Shown here in pieces: positions 13,184 to 30,006 of a stretch of 40,850 bases of DNA. The stretch comes from Candidatus Schekmanbacteria bacterium. GTDB lineage: Bacteria; CSSED10-310; JACPHN01. Numbering within the stretch: the first letter of the stretch is position 1; the number at the start of each line of letters is the position of its first letter. Where the stretch lies: positions 1 through 40,850 of the forward strand of contig JACPHN010000134.1 in assembly GCA_016188575.1 (NCBI GenBank), read 5' to 3'. The notes beneath the pieces were generated by a model. That model did not search any database and had not been told where the DNA came from. It was given only the letters and a program-made list of their open reading frames with translations. A program made the translations under genes and the position numbers.

Positions 13184-13555
13184 GTGGCTCGAATTGCCGG
13201 TGTCGACCTGCCAAGAGATAAGCGGGTCGAGTACGCGCTAACGCGCATCTACGGTATAGGCGTCTCATCGTCGAATCAGATACTAGCTGCGGCCGATGTT
13301 AGTCCCGACACTCGCGTGAAGGACCTGACCGACGACGAGGTAAATCGCATCCGGCGGGTCATAGAGCGGCAGTACCACGTGGAAGGTGAGCTACGGCAAG
13401 AGCTGTCCATGAACATGAAGCGGCTCATGGACATAGGATGCTATAGGGGCCTAAGGCATCGGAGGGGCCTACCCTGTCGTGGCCAGCGGACGCATACAAA
13501 CGCGAGAACACGCAAGGGCCGCCGGAAAGCTGTTGGTCGGAAGAAAAAGAAATAG
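13184..13555 (+). CDS. rpsM: 30S ribosomal protein S13
   Basis: Has 123 residues from GTG 13184, behind [28 protein letters not shown] is the S13 start. The helix-two-turn-helix [20 protein letters not shown] and the tail [20 protein letters not shown], ending KAVGRKKKK, are standard. S13 contacts the P-site tRNA and S19. Confidence 0.98.
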
Positions 13556-13572
13556 CACGAAGGGAGACGTCG

Positions 13573-13998
13573 GTGGCAAAGCAGCAAGCGCAACAACAGG
13601 TGCAACCACAGAAGCGCACGCGCACTAGGGCCAAGAAGAAAGAGAGAAAGAGCGTACCCGTGGGTGTGGCCCACGTCAACTGTACCTTTAACAATACGAT
13701 AGTAACAATAGCAGATCTGGATGGCAATGCCGTATCCTGGTCTAGTGGGGGCTCGGTTGGGTACAAGGGTTCGCGAAAGAGCACGCCATTTGCGGCGCAG
13801 CTTGTAGCGAAGGATGCTGCAACAAAAGCGAAGGAACACGGAGTCAAGGAGGTTGAGGTCTTCCTTCAGGGACCAGGCTCCGGCCGCGAATCGGCGATTC
13901 GATCGTTGCAAGCTGCGGGGCTAGAAATCCGAACAATCAAGGACGTCACGCCTATACCGCACAACGGCTGCAGGCCGCGCAAGCGGCGCCGCGTATAG
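13573..13998 (+). CDS. rpsK: 30S ribosomal protein S11
   Basis: Encodes 141 residues from GTG 13573. The first ~25 residues are a Gln/Lys/Arg-rich extension ([20 protein letters not shown]), then the conserved core starts at [20 protein letters not shown]. Core blocks include [20 protein letters not shown] and the [20 protein letters not shown] loop. It ends with [19 protein letters not shown]11 forms the 30S platform near the E site. Confidence 0.97.
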
Positions 13999-14018
13999 GG
14001 CTGAATAGGAGGAATAAA

Positions 14019-14642
14019 TTGGCTCGATATACAGGACCAGTATGCCGATTCTGCCGGCGGGAAGGAGAGCGTCTCTTCTTGAAGGGTGCCCGATGCCATT
14101 CCGAGAAGTGCGGGATCGAAAAGCGAGCATATCCGCCGGGGCAGCACGGGCGCAGACGAAGCAAGCTCTCCGACTACGGTGTTCAGCTACGTGAGAAGCA
14201 GAAGATGCGACGCCTATATGGACTCCTAGAGAAGCAATTTAGGAGTTACTATGAAAGCGCTGATGCGCAAAAGGGAGTGACCGGTGAAAACTTGATCCGG
14301 CTCCTCGAGCGTCGGCTCGACAATATGGTGTACAGGATGAAGCTGGGCGTGTCGCGGTCCGAGGCGCGTCAGCTTGTCCGGCATGGGCACCTCACTGTTA
14401 ACGGGAAAAAAGTGGATATCCCCTCGTACTTGCTTCGTGAGGGCGATGTCGTTGCCGTGGCTGAAAGCAGCAAGAACGTGACCGCCATCAGGAACGCGAT
14501 TGAGTCCTCTGGCCGGCGGCTTCCTGAGTGGATTGAGCTCGATGTGGAGCGGCTGGTGGGGAGAGTGACCCGGTTTCCTGACCGTTCCGAGCTGGATCTG
14601 CCCTTCAAGGAACAGTTGGTCGTCGAGCTTTACTCCAAGTAA
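14019..14642 (+). CDS. rpsD: 30S ribosomal protein S4 (four-cysteine form)
   Basis: Starts at TTG 14019 after TAGGAGGAA, giving 207 residues. S4 is a primary assembly protein and in E. coli represses the alpha operon. The N-terminal zinc site is intact: [13 protein letters not shown] followed by Cys in [13 protein letters not shown]. The [20 protein letters not shown] block is the zinc-type S4 signature. The S4 RNA-binding domain reads [20 protein letters not shown] and [19 protein letters not shown]. Confidence 0.98.
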
Positions 14643-14660: not shown

Positions 14661-15476
14661 ATGGAACTGCAACTGACGACACCCAGGAAGATCGAATTTG
14701 ATCCCGAGACGCTGACCCCCGGTTATGGCAAGTTGCTCGCCGAGCCCTTCGAGCGCGGATATGGCGTAACGATGGGGAACGCCTTCCGCAGAGTCCTTCT
14801 GTCGTCACTACCGGGTGCTGCCGTAACGGCCCTAAAGATAGCGGGCGCCAGACACGAGTTTTCGACGATCCCGGGAGTCGTAGAAGACGTCACGGACATT
14901 ATCCTGAACATCAAGAGCCTTCTGGTGAGATTGAAAGTGCCGGGGCCAAAGACTATCTATCTACGAGCCGAGAAGGGGCCCGAGGTAACAGCGGCGGACA
15001 TTACTCCGGATCCTGATGTTGAGATCATGAACCCCGCTCTGCACATCGCAACGCTTGAGGGGGACGCATTGTTGGATGTAGAGCTGACGGTGAAACAAGG
15101 GCGGGGCTATGCAACGGCCGAACAAAACACGGAACGAGATATGCCGATCGGCGTTATTGCGATCGATTCAGTCTTTACACCAGTCCAGAAGGTGAATTTT
15201 TCCGTGGAAAATGCTCGGCTCGGGCAGTGGACGGAATACGATAAGCTAATCTTGGAAGTCTGGACGAACAAGACAGTGGGGCCGGAGGCGGCAGTCGCGC
15301 AAGCAGCCGGAATCCTCCGAGACCATTTTGACATGCTTGAGAGGGCATTTATGGGCGCGGTGTCGTCCGCCGCCGGTGCACGAGAAAGTGCAAGCTCCGT
15401 GGCGGCGGCCGAGAGCGCTAGCTCGACGCCGGATCGTCGAGTAGAGGTCTCGTCCGGCGCTAGTGTGGAGGGATAG
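14661..15476 (+). CDS. rpoA: RNA polymerase alpha subunit lacking the C-terminal domain
   Basis: The product is 271 residues, against about 315-340 in typical bacteria. The N-terminal assembly domain is complete: GYGVTMGNAFRRVLLSSLPG, ALKIAGARHEFSTIPGVVED, RDMPIGVIAIDSVFTPVQKV and EVWTNKTVGPEAAVAQAAG. After about residue 237 the sequence turns into a Ser/Ala/Glu-rich stretch (ARESASSVAAAESASSTPDR) and stops at TAG 15474-15476. The alpha C-terminal domain, with its helix-hairpin-helix for UP-element DNA and activator contacts, is absent. No frame nearby encodes it, and rplQ begins 4 bases later, leaving no room. The N-terminal domain should still dimerise and assemble beta and beta'. A separate CTD elsewhere in the genome cannot be excluded. 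Confidence 0.95.
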   Translation: MELQLTTPRKIEFDPETLTPGYGKLLAEPFERGYGVTMGNAFRRVLLSSLPGAAVTALKIAGARHEFSTIPGVVEDVTDIILNIKSLLVRLKVPGPKTIYLRAEKGPEVTAADITPDPDVEIMNPALHIATLEGDALLDVELTVKQGRGYATAEQNTERDMPIGVIAIDSVFTPVQKVNFSVENARLGQWTEYDKLILEVWTNKTVGPEAAVAQAAGILRDHFDMLERAFMGAVSSAAGARESASSVAAAESASSTPDRRVEVSSGASVEG

Positions 15477-15479
15477 ACA

Positions 15480-16106
15480 ATGAGACATCAGAGGCGCCGG
15501 TCCCGACTGAGCCGGCCGTCGGGGCATCGGGAGGCCATGTTGCAGAATCTGGCCGCCGCCGTACTCGAACACGGAAAGGTGCAGACCACGCTCCCGAAAG
15601 CCAAGGAGGTGCGCTCGCTGGTCGAGAGGATTATCACCCTTGGAAAGCGCGAGGAAAATCGGCTACATGCGCGGCGCCAAGCGCTGAGCTACGTACCGCG
15701 CAGAGAAATCGTAGCGCGGGTTTTCGACGACTTGGCGGTGCGGTTTGCAGATCGTAACGGTGGCTATACTCGTATCTACCACCTGGGATATCGCCGCGGT
15801 GACGGTGCCCCGATGGCATTGATAGAGATTCTTCCCGCTGAGACGAAGGCGGAGCACGTTCCCGAGAGTGCGACAGCGAAGCCTTCCGGATGGCGAGGCG
15901 TAGTTGATCGGTTCAGGGGCCGTCGCACTGAATCTCGGCACGAATCAACCAAGGACCGTCCGGGGCCCGAGCAAGGTGTTACCGGAGCCGAGCCGAGGGC
16001 CGAGGAGGCGTCCGGTGCCGCGGGCGGCAGTGGTGCGCCGGAGGAGCAGGAAAGTGGGCCTCAGGCGCCGCCCGCGTCCAGCGAGGGCGAGAAGGGCGAG
16101 GAGTAG
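15480..16106 (+). CDS. rplQ: 50S ribosomal protein L17 with long acidic tail
   Basis: The L17 core is residues 1-120: MRHQRRRSRLSRPSGHREAM, NLAAAVLEHGKVQTTLPKAK and GGYTRIYHLGYRRGDGAPMA. The usual bacterial length is 115-200 residues; this one is 208. Residues 121-208 form a tail rich in Glu, Gly, Pro, Ala and Ser (ending ASSEGEKGEE), with no domain I recognise. Extended L17 tails occur in several lineages. Last gene of the superoperon, followed by a terminator. Confidence 0.96.
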   Translation: MRHQRRRSRLSRPSGHREAMLQNLAAAVLEHGKVQTTLPKAKEVRSLVERIITLGKREENRLHARRQALSYVPRREIVARVFDDLAVRFADRNGGYTRIYHLGYRRGDGAPMALIEILPAETKAEHVPESATAKPSGWRGVVDRFRGRRTESRHESTKDRPGPEQGVTGAEPRAEEASGAAGGSGAPEEQESGPQAPPASSEGEKGEE

Positions 16107-16129: not shown

Positions 16130-16189
16130 GGGCGGGGGTAAGAGGGCACTCGGCAAGCGCCTGCTGAGCTTTCCCCCGCCCGTTCTTTG
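16130..16189 (+). terminator. Probable terminator of the ribosomal superoperon
   Basis: The arms 16130-16138 (GGGCGGGGG) and 16173-16181 are perfectly complementary. Inside the loop, CTCGGC (16150-16155) can pair with GCTGAG with one G-T wobble, giving a long compound hairpin. The downstream GTTCTTTGT is moderately T-rich. It begins 23 bases after the rplQ stop. The next gene starts 18 bases after the hairpin, so some read-through is possible. Confidence 0.65.
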
Positions 16190-16207
16190 TACAGAAGGGG
16201 CGTAGGC

Positions 16208-18724
16208 GTGTTTGTGGGCGAAATACGGGACTCCGATTCGGCATCGCGCGGCTGGATCGCCATGGCGGGCTTGATCATCGTCGTCACCGCGGCGACCAGA
16301 TTCTACGACCTGGGCAGTAGACCCTATCACCACGACGAAAGTCTACATGCCAAGTTCTCGTACCAGCTTTTCCGTGGCGAAGGGTACCGCTACGACCCCG
16401 TGTACCATGGGCCACTACTGTACCACCTGACGGCGCTTACATTCTTCCTGTTTGGAGATTCAGACACAACGGCGAGGCTTTATCCGGCGTTGACGGGATT
16501 GCTTCTGGTGTGTCTCATACTTTATTCCAGAAGGGAGATTGGCGACGCACAGTCGGTTTTTTGTGCCGCACTAGTTGCATTATCTCCGACCTGCATGTAC
16601 TATTCACGTTTCGCAAGAAATGATATCCCGGTAGCGTTATATAGCCTGGGAATTGTGATATTTGGGCATCGCTACTTTTATAAAAAGAGAGCGAATGATC
16701 TAAGACTTGTTGCAGTATGTATGGCACTGTCATTTACAGCGAAAGAGAACACATATATTACTATATTCATATTTGCTACCTTCATTGGCTTGATGTTATC
16801 AAAACAGTTGGTTTTCGGCAGCGTGCGTCCCATGGCTAATACTCGTTCCTTAATTCGTGAGCTATGGCCGGATTTCTTGTCTGCTGGCGCGATTTTTGCA
16901 GTCATATACATTTTGCTTTTCTCTACATTCCTGACTAATCCTTGGGGTGTATGGGAGGGCGTGACAGGCCTAAAATACTGGTTGGGACAACAAAAGCAAC
17001 CGCGCATTCCGGGTCCATGGTGGTACTACGTTCCTCTGCTCGTAGTCTATGAACTGCCCGCTGTATGCCTTACGATTATCGGAAGCATCGTAATGAGGAG
17101 ATTTGACTTACTTCGACTCCTTATGGTTCACTGGACGGTGCTGAGTTTCGCTATGTACAGTTGGGCTAATGAAAAGGTTCCATGGCTCGGCGTTCACATA
17201 GTTGTACCGATGCTTTTGGTAGCGGGGATATTCATCGGCGACTGCTACGAGTTCGGCAAACGACACACCAGACGAGCTGCTATTGTATGTATTGTGGCGT
17301 CTGTTATATTCTGCTCACACGCGGGCGTTCCAGTGAATTTTAGAAGTGGCGCCGATCCTAAAGAAATGATGGTATTCGTGCAAACTACGGACGAAGTAAA
17401 CAGAATAATTAACGAGATAGAGGATTGGTCTTTCAAGCTAAGTACGGGACTGGATACCAAGATTGTTGTGCAAAGTATTGCCAGTTGGCCGCTCAGTTGG
17501 CATTTGCGGCACTATACAAATGTTAGCTATCCTGCAACAGTCGGCTATTCGGATGCTCCGATTCTTGTCTTGGACTATGAGAAACGCTCTCAACTTGATC
17601 CGGCTTTTAACGATGAGTACGTGAAACGGCGCTACCCGCTACGCGCCTGGTGGACGCCGGAGTGGTCAAAGCTGACACTTCACGGCGCCTGGCGGTACGT
17701 AGTGTACCGAGAGACGTTCAGCCCGACGGGTAGCAGCGACATTTACCTGGCGATTCGCAAGGATCTCTTTCCTGTGGCCACCGTCACCTCTGCCCAACGG
17801 GGAGCGACTGCCGCTTCGGCAGGGGAGGCGGCAGGCGTGGACCAGGATGGTCCAGGTGAGGCGGTGAAGGCCGTGGGTATGCTCCGCCTCGGCTGGACAG
17901 CCGATGGCTCCGGTTTCCCTGGGGGTGGATTTTCTGAGCCGCATGATATTGCCGTAGGGCCTGACGGCACGATTGTAGTCGCCGACAGCGGCAAGAATCG
18001 CGTCATCGTGCTCAGCGCAGATGGGACGTGGCGGCGCGCGATTGGTGAGAAGGGCTCGGGTCCTCTGCAGTTCAGCGCCCCACAGGGGGTTGCCGTGGAC
18101 TCGGGGGGAACTATCTTCGTGGCTGACACCTGGAATCACCGGGTGCACGCAATCGGTGCTTCCGGGGACACGAGCTGGATTCATGGTCCGAAGCTGAGGG
18201 ACGAAGGAAACTATTTCGGTCCTCGCGATGTGCTCGTCGCTTCGAACGGGGAGATCCTGGTCAGCGATACGGGCAACCGGCGCATTCATGTTCTCTCGCC
18301 GCATGGCGACCTACTTCGCAGTATGGGGGGGGAAGGGAAATCTCCGGGGCGGCTGATCGAGTCTGTGGGGCTTGCTAGTGACGACGATGGCAGTATCTAC
18401 GTCGCGGATACTGGCAACCAGCGTATCCAAGTGCTTGATCCGAAGGGAACGTTCCTCAGGGAGTTTCCGGCCAGGGGATGGGAGGAGTACTACACAGAAC
18501 CATACCTTGCGTTGGATGAAGAGCGCGGAATTCTTGTGGCGTCTGACAGCAAGAACAACAGGCTCGTTGTGTATTCCTCGGCGGGAAGGTACCTGCGAGA
18601 CATCTCGAAGTTCGAGGGGGGGAGCTTGTTGAATCCCACAGGAGTAGCTGTCGACAATGGTGGTGGGTTGGTTGTTGCTGACTCCAGGCATAACCGCATC
18701 CTGCGTTTCGAGCCGGGTTGGTAG
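16208..18724 (+). CDS. GT-C membrane glycosyltransferase-like protein (TIGR03663/Agl23-like) fused to NHL beta-propeller
   Basis: Starting at GTG 16208 (AAGGGGCG upstream), 838 residues. Residues 1-540 form a polytopic membrane protein with the GT-C hallmark acidic pair in the first loop (YHHDESLHAKFSYQLFRGEG), followed by YDPVYHGPLLYHL, YYSRFARNDIP, FTAKENTYIT and EKVPWLGVHIVVPMLL. This pattern fits the TIGR03663 family, which relates to dolichol-phosphate-sugar transferases and the archaeal Agl23 proteins. From about residue 561 there are six NHL repeats, each with a core like GVAVDSGGTIFVADTWNHRV or LVSDTGNRRIHVL, making a six-bladed propeller presumably on the outside. The substrate is unknown. 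The middle of the gene (about 16,520-17,620) is much richer in A+T than either end. Family assignment is from motif memory; the propeller is clear. Confidence 0.8.
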   Translation: MFVGEIRDSDSASRGWIAMAGLIIVVTAATRFYDLGSRPYHHDESLHAKFSYQLFRGEGYRYDPVYHGPLLYHLTALTFFLFGDSDTTARLYPALTGLLLVCLILYSRREIGDAQSVFCAALVALSPTCMYYSRFARNDIPVALYSLGIVIFGHRYFYKKRANDLRLVAVCMALSFTAKENTYITIFIFATFIGLMLSKQLVFGSVRPMANTRSLIRELWPDFLSAGAIFAVIYILLFSTFLTNPWGVWEGVTGLKYWLGQQKQPRIPGPWWYYVPLLVVYELPAVCLTIIGSIVMRRFDLLRLLMVHWTVLSFAMYSWANEKVPWLGVHIVVPMLLVAGIFIGDCYEFGKRHTRRAAIVCIVASVIFCSHAGVPVNFRSGADPKEMMVFVQTTDEVNRIINEIEDWSFKLSTGLDTKIVVQSIASWPLSWHLRHYTNVSYPATVGYSDAPILVLDYEKRSQLDPAFNDEYVKRRYPLRAWWTPEWSKLTLHGAWRYVVYRETFSPTGSSDIYLAIRKDLFPVATVTSAQRGATAASAGEAAGVDQDGPGEAVKAVGMLRLGWTADGSGFPGGGFSEPHDIAVGPDGTIVVADSGKNRVIVLSADGTWRRAIGEKGSGPLQFSAPQGVAVDSGGTIFVADTWNHRVHAIGASGDTSWIHGPKLRDEGNYFGPRDVLVASNGEILVSDTGNRRIHVLSPHGDLLRSMGGEGKSPGRLIESVGLASDDDGSIYVADTGNQRIQVLDPKGTFLREFPARGWEEYYTEPYLALDEERGILVASDSKNNRLVVYSSAGRYLRDISKFEGGSLLNPTGVAVDNGGGLVVADSRHNRILRFEPGW

Positions 18725-25919: not shown

Positions 25920-28900
25920 CTACATGTTGCGGCGGTATTGGCCGCCCACCTCGAACAACGCTTGGGTGATCTGTTCAAGGCTGCAGACTTTGACCGTCTC
26001 CATGAGCTCGGCAAAGATATTCCCGCCGGCAAGTGCCACGGTCTTGAGCGCTGCAAGGGCTGCGGGAGCGAACTCCGCGTGCTGCGCCTTGAATGTTTCG
26101 ACACCGGTCACTTGCTGCATCTTCTCGTCATCGGTCGATCGGCTAAGCGCGACCTCGACCACCCCTTCCGGTTGCGTGCGGGTCAGAAAAGTGTTGACGC
26201 CGACTATTGGCAACTCACCGCTGTGTTTTCTTCGTTCATACAGCAAGGACTCTTCCTGGATTTTCGACCGCTGGTACATCACTTCCATCGCTCCGAGCAC
26301 GCCGCCGCGCTCCGCGATTCTATCAAACTCTTGTAGCACCGCGTGCTCAACGGCATCGGTCAGCGCCTGCAGAAAATAGGATCCTTGCATAGGGTTCTCA
26401 GATCGCGTAAGTCCATATTCTCGGTTAATAATGAGCTGGATAGCAAGCGCACGGCGTACAGAATCTTCCGTTGGCGTAGTTATTGCCTCGTCATACGCAT
26501 TTGTGTGCAGGCTGTTACAATTGTCGCATATTGCGTATAAAGCTTGCAGAGTCGTCCGGATATCGTTGAACGAGATTTCCTGAGCATGGAGCGATCTTCC
26601 AGACGTTTGGATGTGGTACTTGAGCTGCTGGCTTCTTGCGGCTGCGCCGTACACGTCTCGCATGGCGATCGCCCAAATTCTCCGTGCGACGCGGCCAATG
26701 ACGGCATACTCAGGATCAATTCCGTTGCTGAAGAAGAAAGAGAGATTTCTCGCGAAGTCGTCTATTTGCATTCCGCGGGACAGGTAATATTCCACGTAAG
26801 TGAAGGCATTCGAAAGTGTGAATGCGAGCTGTGTAATCGGGTTTGCACCCGCTTCCGCAATGTGGTAGCCCGATATGGATACAGAATAGAAGTTACGAAT
26901 ATTGTTTTCGACAAAATATTCCTGGATGTCGCCCATCATCTTCAGAGCAAATTCCGTGGCGAATATGCACGTGTTTTGGGCCTGGTCTTCCTTGAGAATA
27001 TCGGCCTGCACTGTGCCGCGAACGCACGCCAGCGTATCTGCCTTGATGGCGCGGTATTCTTCAGGTGAGATCACGCGATCACCGCTCAGACTGAGGAGAC
27101 CCAATCCGCTGCCGTCGTGCGTTTCGGGCAAGTCAGGGGCGCGATAGACGGTTTGTTTGGGGCACAGTTCGGCGATGAGCTCAAGTGTTCTTTCCCACCT
27201 GTCCGAAGCGCGAAGCCGACGCTCGACCGCCTGGTCGATCGCCGTGTTCAGGAACATGGCGAGCAGGACAGGAGCGGGACCATTAATGGTCATGGAGACG
27301 CTGGTGCTCGGTGCGCAAAGATCGAAGCCGGAGTAGAGTCGTTTGGCGTCGTCTACCGTTGCAATGCTGACCCCGGAGTTGCCGATTTTCCCAAAAATAT
27401 CGGGACGCCGTTCCGGGTCTCTGCCGTAGAGCGTTACCGAGTCGAAAGCGGTGGACAGCCGGGCGGCCGGCTGCCCGGCCGAAAGGTAGTGAAATCGCTT
27501 GTTGGTGCGCTCGGGGGTGCCTTCTCCCGCGAACATGCGGGTAGGATCCTCGGTGGAGCGTTTGTACGGGAAGATTCCCGCCGTGAATGGGAACTGACCC
27601 GGGGCATTCTCCAGCCGCGCCCACGCGATCAGCTCCTTCCAGTCGTCAGTGGTGGGCAGAGTAACGCGGGGAATCCTGGTGCCAGAGAGTGATTCGGAGT
27701 AGTTCTCGACACTGATTTCGCGCTCGCGCACCCGATAGCGGTTTTGCGGTGCCGAATAGTCGCGACGCAGCTCCGGGAGCGCCTGCAGGAAGTTGCGCGA
27801 GGGCGGGCTGAGCTTCGCGAGCAGCTCGTCATGGCGACGCGCGAGCTCAGTAATCATTGGCTCCAGCGCATCGCCTGGCGACACCAACCGCGGACCGCCT
27901 AGCAGCGATGTGCCTGGTGCCCCGCTCGTGCCACCCAGCTCAGCAATAGTGCGTCGCAGGCCATCCGCCCGACCGGCGATGTCGGCATCGGCCTGCGTTG
28001 TCGCGCGATACGCTCGCACCGCATCCGCAACGTCCGCGAGGTAGCGAGACCGGCGATCCGGGACAACAACGGGAATTTCGGCGATTCGAGGAGGCTGAGC
28101 AGATGGCAACCAGCCGTTCGCTCGACGCTGGTCCACAAGCTGCATGAGGTGCCGAAAGACCGTATCGACGCCAGGATCGCCGTAGCGGCTCGCCATGCAC
28201 GAAACGACCGGCATTGCCTGGAGATCGAAGTCTGCACGCCCGCGATTGCGCCGCATCTGCTTCGCAACGTGGTTGCGCGCGTCCGTGGCACCGCGTTTGT
28301 CGGCCTTATTCACTACAACGAGGTCGGCAAAGTCGAGCATGTCGATTTTCTCGAGCTGAGATGGCGCGCCGAACTCAGGCGTCATGACATAGACCGAGAC
28401 ATCGCTAAGGTCGACGATTTCAGAGCTGCTCTGCCCGCTGCCAGCGGTCTCGATGAGAACAAGGTCGAACCCGGCGCATTGGAGTGCGAAAGTAGCATCA
28501 GCGACGGTCTCCGAGATGACTGAATTGGCTTGCCGGGTGGCCATGGAGCGTAAGTAACTTCGCGATCCTCCGATCGCATTCATCCGGATTCTATCGCCCA
28601 GCAGGGCGCCGCCACTGCGTCTCCTGGTGGGGTCGATGCAGAGCACCGCGACAGTGCGGGTGGGGTGATAGTGCAGCACGCGCCTGAGCAGCTCGTCAGC
28701 GAGCGATGACTTGCCGGAACCGCCGACGCCCGTAATGCCGACAACCGGGGCCAGGCACTTCGGGGCACCGTTCCGAAGCTCGTGCAGGATGGTGTCCCGA
28801 TGAGCGCGTGCGGCGCTGGCGCGGTCGCCGTCGGCGGCCGTGGCGGCCGAGACGTGGAAATGCTCCAGCGCTGTGAGGATCCTGGACACCACGCCGTGCT

Positions 28901-29411
28901 CGCGGCGAAAAAACGCCGCCGGAATCACGGTATGCGGCGCGCGCCGATGCGTACCGCAAATGGTGATCATGTCCTGGATCATGCCGTCGAGCCCGAGACG
29001 GCGGCCGTCTTCGGCAGAGTAGATACTGGCGATTCCGAGGCGGACGAGCTCGCGGCTTTCGCTATCGGTGATGGTGCCGCCTCCGCCGGCAAAGACGCGC
29101 ACGTGCTTCGCCCCCCGCTCGGCGAGCAAAGTGAGCATGAAGGCAAAGAACTCCATGTGCCCCCCTTGATAGGAGGACACGGCAATCGCGTCCGCATCCT
29201 CTTCTATGGCCGCCGTAACGATGTCGACGACGGACCGGTCGTGCCCGAGGTGAACTACCTCGACGCCCCGCGCCTGTAGCAGTCGCCGGATAATGTTGAT
29301 TGAAGCGTCATGCCCGTCAAAGAGGCTGGTCGCGGTGATGAAGCGAAGGGGCACGGCAATGACTTCTGCCTGGGCCGCCGGTGCGGCGGTGGCCGGGGTA
29401 GGTGCGGTCAT
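25920..29411 (-). CDS. icmF: Fused acyl-CoA mutase/G-protein (IcmF type)
   Basis: Starts at ATG 29411 (AGGATT upstream); 1163 residues. The N-terminal cobalamin-binding domain holds DGHDAS (Asp32, His34), SSYQGGHMEFF and FAGGGGT. A MeaB/ArgK-type GTPase follows with P-loop GITGVGGSGKSS near residues 226-236, LIETAGSGQSS and NKAD. The mutase barrel carries FPYKRSTEDPTRMFAG, LSTAFDSVTLYGRDPERRPD, KIGNSGVSIATVDDAKRLYS and TSVSMTINGPAPVLLAMF. The order B12-GTPase-mutase is that of IcmF, which isomerises isobutyryl- and n-butyryl-CoA, using the built-in G domain for cofactor loading. Tyr616 stands where many IcmF have Phe, so the acyl substrate is uncertain. DNA from about 27,060 down to 26,200 is visibly AT-richer than the GTPase part. 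Confidence 0.9.
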   Translation of the reverse strand: MTAPTPATAAPAAQAEVIAVPLRFITATSLFDGHDASINIIRRLLQARGVEVVHLGHDRSVVDIVTAAIEEDADAIAVSSYQGGHMEFFAFMLTLLAERGAKHVRVFAGGGGTITDSESRELVRLGIASIYSAEDGRRLGLDGMIQDMITICGTHRRAPHTVIPAAFFRREHGVVSRILTALEHFHVSAATAADGDRASAARAHRDTILHELRNGAPKCLAPVVGITGVGGSGKSSLADELLRRVLHYHPTRTVAVLCIDPTRRRSGGALLGDRIRMNAIGGSRSYLRSMATRQANSVISETVADATFALQCAGFDLVLIETAGSGQSSSEIVDLSDVSVYVMTPEFGAPSQLEKIDMLDFADLVVVNKADKRGATDARNHVAKQMRRNRGRADFDLQAMPVVSCMASRYGDPGVDTVFRHLMQLVDQRRANGWLPSAQPPRIAEIPVVVPDRRSRYLADVADAVRAYRATTQADADIAGRADGLRRTIAELGGTSGAPGTSLLGGPRLVSPGDALEPMITELARRHDELLAKLSPPSRNFLQALPELRRDYSAPQNRYRVREREISVENYSESLSGTRIPRVTLPTTDDWKELIAWARLENAPGQFPFTAGIFPYKRSTEDPTRMFAGEGTPERTNKRFHYLSAGQPAARLSTAFDSVTLYGRDPERRPDIFGKIGNSGVSIATVDDAKRLYSGFDLCAPSTSVSMTINGPAPVLLAMFLNTAIDQAVERRLRASDRWERTLELIAELCPKQTVYRAPDLPETHDGSGLGLLSLSGDRVISPEEYRAIKADTLACVRGTVQADILKEDQAQNTCIFATEFALKMMGDIQEYFVENNIRNFYSVSISGYHIAEAGANPITQLAFTLSNAFTYVEYYLSRGMQIDDFARNLSFFFSNGIDPEYAVIGRVARRIWAIAMRDVYGAAARSQQLKYHIQTSGRSLHAQEISFNDIRTTLQALYAICDNCNSLHTNAYDEAITTPTEDSVRRALAIQLIINREYGLTRSENPMQGSYFLQALTDAVEHAVLQEFDRIAERGGVLGAMEVMYQRSKIQEESLLYERRKHSGELPIVGVNTFLTRTQPEGVVEVALSRSTDDEKMQQVTGVETFKAQHAEFAPAALAALKTVALAGGNIFAELMETVKVCSLEQITQALFEVGGQYRRNM

Positions 29412-30006
29412 GATGATAATCCTGGGAAGAGAGGCGTCAGTGGACGCGCGCCGCAAGTCAAACGGTAAGCGCGCGCTGCTCCCGCTGTCAAGGGTAGGGG
29501 TAATCGGCAGCAGGGAATGGTGAAGTCGGCGCGCCAAAGCCCTGAGTCTGCCTCGCCCGACTGTTTCCTCGGCGCCAGAGCGAGAGCGGTGCGCTGGGAT
29601 CCGGCGCCGCCTGCACCGGGAAGATCAGAGTTTGGCCTGCGGTTTGCAACAGCGACGAGCAACACGGAGAATGGCCTGTTGGAGGTTGCGGTCTCTGTGA
29701 CGACATCGGCCACAATGACCTGGTTTCAACTCGGGCTTCCGACGGATGTGCGAAATGCACCGGTTTGAGGAGATGGAACGGCAAGTGCAAAGCCGCTACC
29801 GAGCGTCCGCGTTGACGGGCCAGTCCGTGCGTCTTCCGGGCGACATTGTGCTCTGTCCTCTTTCCGATCACCGGTGGTGCATCTTCCTCGTCACTGCGAC
29901 CGCCCCTGATCGGCCACCCGTGTTGCTTTACGTTCGCGACAGTCGATCGCTGGCGATGCAAGCTGCCGCCTATCATGTCGAGGAGCGTGGTAATCACGAG
30001 GCCGAT
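29412..30006. other. Gap between mutase and FHA genes, no secure gene
   Basis: About 600 bases with the mutase promoter near one end. On the plus strand, two overlapping short frames (29517-29768 and 29746-30237) have codon positions that look moderately protein-like. A minus frame at 29488-29997 is Pro/Arg/Ser-rich and shadow-like. No terminator or RNA structure was recognised here. Confidence 0.4.
29462..29491 (-). promoter_or_regulatory. Candidate promoter for icmF-type gene
   Basis: On the minus strand TTGACA (plus 29486-29491) is followed after 18 bases by TACCGT (plus 29462-29467), about 50 bases before the start codon. The -35 is a perfect match to the sigma-70 consensus; the -10 is only 3 of 6. 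Confidence 0.4.

Follow-up and report, generated by a model that had tools for sequence, protein, structure and literature searches.

An RNA polymerase alpha subunit gene encoding no C-terminal domain in a large draft genome of Candidatus Schekmanbacteria

The window analysed here, a stretch of 40,850 nucleotides from a Candidatus Schekmanbacteria contig, contains the genes rpsM-rpsK-rpsD-rpoA-rplQ in the usual order of the alpha operon. The three upstream genes (positions 13184–14642, + strand) were assigned from ORFs that match ribosomal proteins of relatives and are followed by rpoA (14661–15476, +), which starts with ATG, ends with TAG (15474–15476) and codes for 271 amino acids. Residues 1–227 (14661–15341, +) make up the alpha N-terminal domain (NTD), comprising the dimerisation and insert domains. 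In Pfam searches, both families scored above cut-off: PF01193 (Rpb3/Rpb11 dimerisation) spans residues 28–223 (E 8.8e-26) and PF01000 (insert domain) residues 59–173 (E 1.9e-32). Among solved structures in the PDB, alpha-subunit chains come closest (E 5e-76, alignment spanning residues 21–226), and an AlphaFold2 model based on a 57-row alignment shows pLDDT values of mostly 95–98 across the NTD. Residues that are invariant over 57 RpoA sequences are retained, for example G39, N40, R43, R44, D76, K85, D169 and P174. Since family matches, predicted structure and conserved residues agree, the NTD was judged to be intact. We conclude that the rpoA product is an alpha subunit by its NTD and its locus, though not a full-length one. 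Judging from conservation and the model, the encoded NTD should be assembly-competent, and a normal core with beta and beta' is expected.

Canonical RpoA, as found in E. coli, B. subtilis and the same-phylum genomes, shares its NTD fold, its dimer and core-binding surface and its operon position with the protein described here. It differs in carrying an acidic linker and a C-terminal domain (CTD), neither of which is present in this protein; in their place is a Ser/Ala-rich tail (residues 232–271; 15354–15473, +), defined by its composition and by pLDDT. PF03118, which describes the helix-hairpin-helix alpha CTD, gave no match in RpoA even at E-values up to 10. Serine accounts for 11 and alanine for 10 of the 40 tail residues. 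Thus, the initial annotation, which had reported an intact NTD, a missing CTD and a Ser/Ala-rich stretch before the stop, is borne out on each of these points. In the model, the last NTD helix extends to residue 251 and is followed by disorder, with pLDDT dropping to about 45, suggesting that the tail is probably flexible. The tail has a GC3 of 0.67, close to the operon value, compared with 0.63 for the NTD. The five other frames of positions 15301–15520 are interrupted by stops and contain no CTD remnant; a frameshift concealing the domain was rejected because nothing CTD-like was seen in those frames.

Three bases (15477–15479) separate the rpoA stop codon from the rplQ ATG at 15480, one fewer than the initial annotation had counted. 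Direct reading of the sequence places a Shine-Dalgarno-like site for rplQ, GGAGGG (15467–15472, +), within the end of rpoA. In the same-phylum genomes, a leader of roughly 30 bases lies between rpoA and the next ATG (identified as rplQ by eye), whereas here there are only three, indicating that the truncation left a tighter rpoA-rplQ coupling. The rplQ gene (15480–16106, +; PF01196) encodes an L17 protein with a 91-aa low-complexity C-terminal extension. Extensions of 73–121 aa were found on L17 at no fewer than 12 of 105 other loci, and the idea that this segment is a displaced feature was rejected since such extensions are common in other bacteria.

To our knowledge, the alpha CTD is close to universal in bacteria. 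It was present in six of seven same-phylum genomes (G001–G004, G006 and G007), and no RpoA was seen in the seventh, which is 60% complete; all of these relatives share the phylum only, and none belongs to its class or to any lower rank down to the genus. Among roughly 100 other RpoA loci, every complete gene encodes a CTD, and two (L046 and L085) end at a contig edge before the domain does. Across 319 diverse genomes at completeness of at least 97%, PF03118 was matched in 316, a sample in which this filter probably under-represents reduced genomes, the setting of the reported CTD losses. The three genomes with no match (G126, G130 and G328), as well as three with weak matches (G239, G245 and G308), showed no RpoA NTD either. 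They were rejected as further natural cases, because genomes with no readable rpoA say nothing on CTD loss. The control genome of Corynebacterium glutamicum gave a match for RpoB but not for PF01000, and rpoA is apparently missing from the data of some genomes; in G074, rpoA is truncated by a contig edge. Since the domain is found in every other complete RpoA examined, its absence here is far from chance, and since all readable relatives have it, the loss falls on this lineage's own branch.

Two side observations came from the same comparison. Three loci from other phyla (L127, L130 and L131) encode strongly diverged RpoA CTDs, possibly representing intermediate stages in losing canonical CTD function. 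In addition, the RpoA sequences of two records titled Acetobacteraceae and Bacteroidales (L061 and L091) group with those of Bacillota and Planctomycetota, and these records are likely mislabelled or contaminated bins.

An assembly or strain-mixture artefact, in which an in-frame CTD-coding segment was lost during contig building, has to be weighed against a real loss. The truncated rpoA is known from one draft assembly, with no independent copy among the genomes compared, and every readable relative has the CTD. Moreover, contigs C57 and C59 share 94%-identical stretches, so that the bin may contain strain variants. The initial annotation had held that a normal CTD in relatives would point to an artefact; such relatives do exist, but as they share only the phylum, they date the loss to this branch and do not by themselves show an artefact. 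The junction speaks against one, for the whole domain would have to be lost in frame, with a stop just before the rplQ start and the Shine-Dalgarno site left intact. An ESASS motif is repeated in the tail, but each copy uses different codons, hence no DNA repeat is evident there that could have driven a collapse. The GC3 of the tail is likewise normal. Taken together, we regard an artefact as unlikely.

The genome assembly is a metagenome-type draft of 9.2 Mb in 275 contigs, 93.8% complete. It contains one match to the RpoA NTD (PF01000), that of the gene described here, and one to the RpoB core. A second alpha gene was rejected on the basis of this single PF01000 match, and neither Pfam PF03118 nor a 13-row CTD profile, the latter at E-values up to 10, detected a canonical CTD genome-wide; the absence of a second copy, on which the initial annotation had made its argument conditional, thus holds for the assembly. 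The only CTD-like matches obtained with the two profiles are helix-hairpin-helix segments on three contigs. C62 (about 45.2 kb) encodes a coiled protein of 310 aa (L001 1477–2406, –) that ends in a PF03118-like helix-hairpin-helix (33–36 bits); its neighbouring ORFs look by eye like GvpA and GvpN, as in a gas-vesicle-type cluster. C57 and C59 (L123 and L124) each encode a PglW-like protein kinase with two alpha-CTD-like segments; the kinase copies are 94% identical at the DNA level and are either paralogues or strain variants within the bin.

A CTD might be supplied in trans, whether by these segments or by a gene in the roughly 6% of the genome left unassembled, and the segments do score against PF03118 (36 bits for C62, 28–34 bits for C57 and C59). 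However, they belong to the gas-vesicle-cluster coiled protein and the PglW-like kinases rather than to anything alpha-like, and in alignment canonical CTDs have in common an asparagine-cysteine pair and a lysine that are missing from the C62 segment. A CTD elsewhere in the assembly was rejected because the candidate segments sit in unrelated, non-alpha proteins, and we consider provision in trans very improbable.

The contig is assigned to this genome and phylum by its composition and by the RpoA tree. Its last 10 kb have a GC content of 0.659 and a 4-mer distance of 0.10, compared with a genome mean of 0.12, and are therefore genome-typical. RpoA, L17 and SecY have their best matches in same-phylum genomes, and in an NTD tree RpoA clusters with the same-phylum rows (support 87/77). 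That the contig stems from a contaminating organism, the genome's own rpoA being unassembled, is suggested by the GC content of the window's ribosomal part (0.56–0.60, below the 0.655 of most of the genome) but is highly improbable given these matches, an rpoBC contig of similarly low GC and the failure to find a second rpoA, and it would merely shift the finding to another host.

The explanation that we favour, with reasonable confidence, is that the alpha CTD was genuinely lost, specifically in this lineage, leaving an assembly-competent NTD; activation would then proceed through other routes. UP elements and many activators dock on the alpha CTD. In the mechanism proposed, the alpha dimer would bind beta and beta', and the RNA polymerase core would form normally; the resulting holoenzyme would neither bind UP elements nor respond to activators that contact the alpha CTD. 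Promoter strength and activation would then depend on sigma-70 contacts with the –35 and –10 elements and on activators touching sigma region 4 or the alpha NTD, as well as on alternative sigma factors and on sigma-54 assisted by its AAA+ activators.

Searches for sigma-70 region 3 gave three matches, and the genome encodes a primary sigma, a FliA-like sigma and an RpoH-like sigma; region 4 of the primary sigma looks normal by eye, with no obvious change. Sigma-54 activators (PF00158) gave 78 strong matches genome-wide, about 8.5 per Mb, and GAFTGA-type motifs were seen in 14 of them in 0.43 Mb of sampled sequence. Sampling of the genome turned up no rpoN gene, which at that coverage is uninformative. 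One CRP-type HTH scored above cut-off; CRP regulators are few across the whole phylum, CTD-bearing genomes among them, and their scarcity was for this reason rejected as a sign of compensation. Desulfovibrio vulgaris, with a genome of about 3.6 Mb, has a normal alpha. Its sigma-54 activators number 37 (PMC4641369). Since activator density here is not above that of D. vulgaris and CRP scarcity is phylum-wide, the evidence for compensation is not specific; we infer both that sigma contacts and sigma-54 activators compensate and that the enzyme functions.

Alpha subunits lacking the CTD have been reported in the endosymbionts Tremblaya and Hodgkinia and in Euglena plastids (PMC8321222 and references therein), which have kept the NTD and lost the CTD as seen here. 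Parcubacteria are also named in PMC8321222, although the main text of the work cited there (PMC4508563) contains no statement on RNA polymerase. Core assembly and basal transcription require no more of alpha than its NTD, as restated in PMC8321222, which also cites the Pu promoter as a sigma-54 promoter that additionally uses the alpha CTD. B. subtilis expressing a CTD-less alpha doubles in 1.9 h compared with 1.0 h, and expression of ribosome and carbon-use genes is reduced in the CTD-truncated strain (PMC4495994). In that engineered strain the truncated alpha assembles into polymerase and sustains growth, as the alpha described here would be expected to do; the B. subtilis truncation is a laboratory construct, whereas here it is the sole natural allele. 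The genomes of Tremblaya, Hodgkinia and the plastids are highly reduced and have lost most regulators, in contrast to the present 9.2-Mb genome, which encodes several sigma factors and activators by the dozen. Hence CTD loss itself is already known, and the large genome is what is new. The initial annotation had argued that activation must work differently in this organism. This stands insofar as UP-element binding and class I contacts with the alpha CTD are lost, but no exotic mechanism is required, because CTD-less alpha subunits are known (PMC8321222) and CTD-less B. subtilis grows, albeit more slowly (PMC4495994).

More tentatively, a deep lineage with a large, regulator-rich genome might have dispensed with the alpha CTD altogether and directed all activation through sigma contacts and sigma-54. 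If so, complex regulation would not require UP elements or class I activators that contact the CTD, and a natural large-genome bacterium with no alpha CTD would amount to a living deletion strain. Its promoters would be expected to lack UP-element signatures and its activators to lack alpha-CTD contacts, predictions that are testable from the genome and transcription-start data.

Two other genes in the window encode fusion proteins. Directly 3' of rplQ, positions 16187–18724 (+) encode an 845-aa protein in which a PMT-type membrane glycosyltransferase is fused to NHL repeats, and positions 25920–29537 (–) encode a 1205-aa protein that joins a B12-binding, a MeaB-type GTPase and a methylmalonyl-CoA mutase domain in an IcmF-like arrangement.
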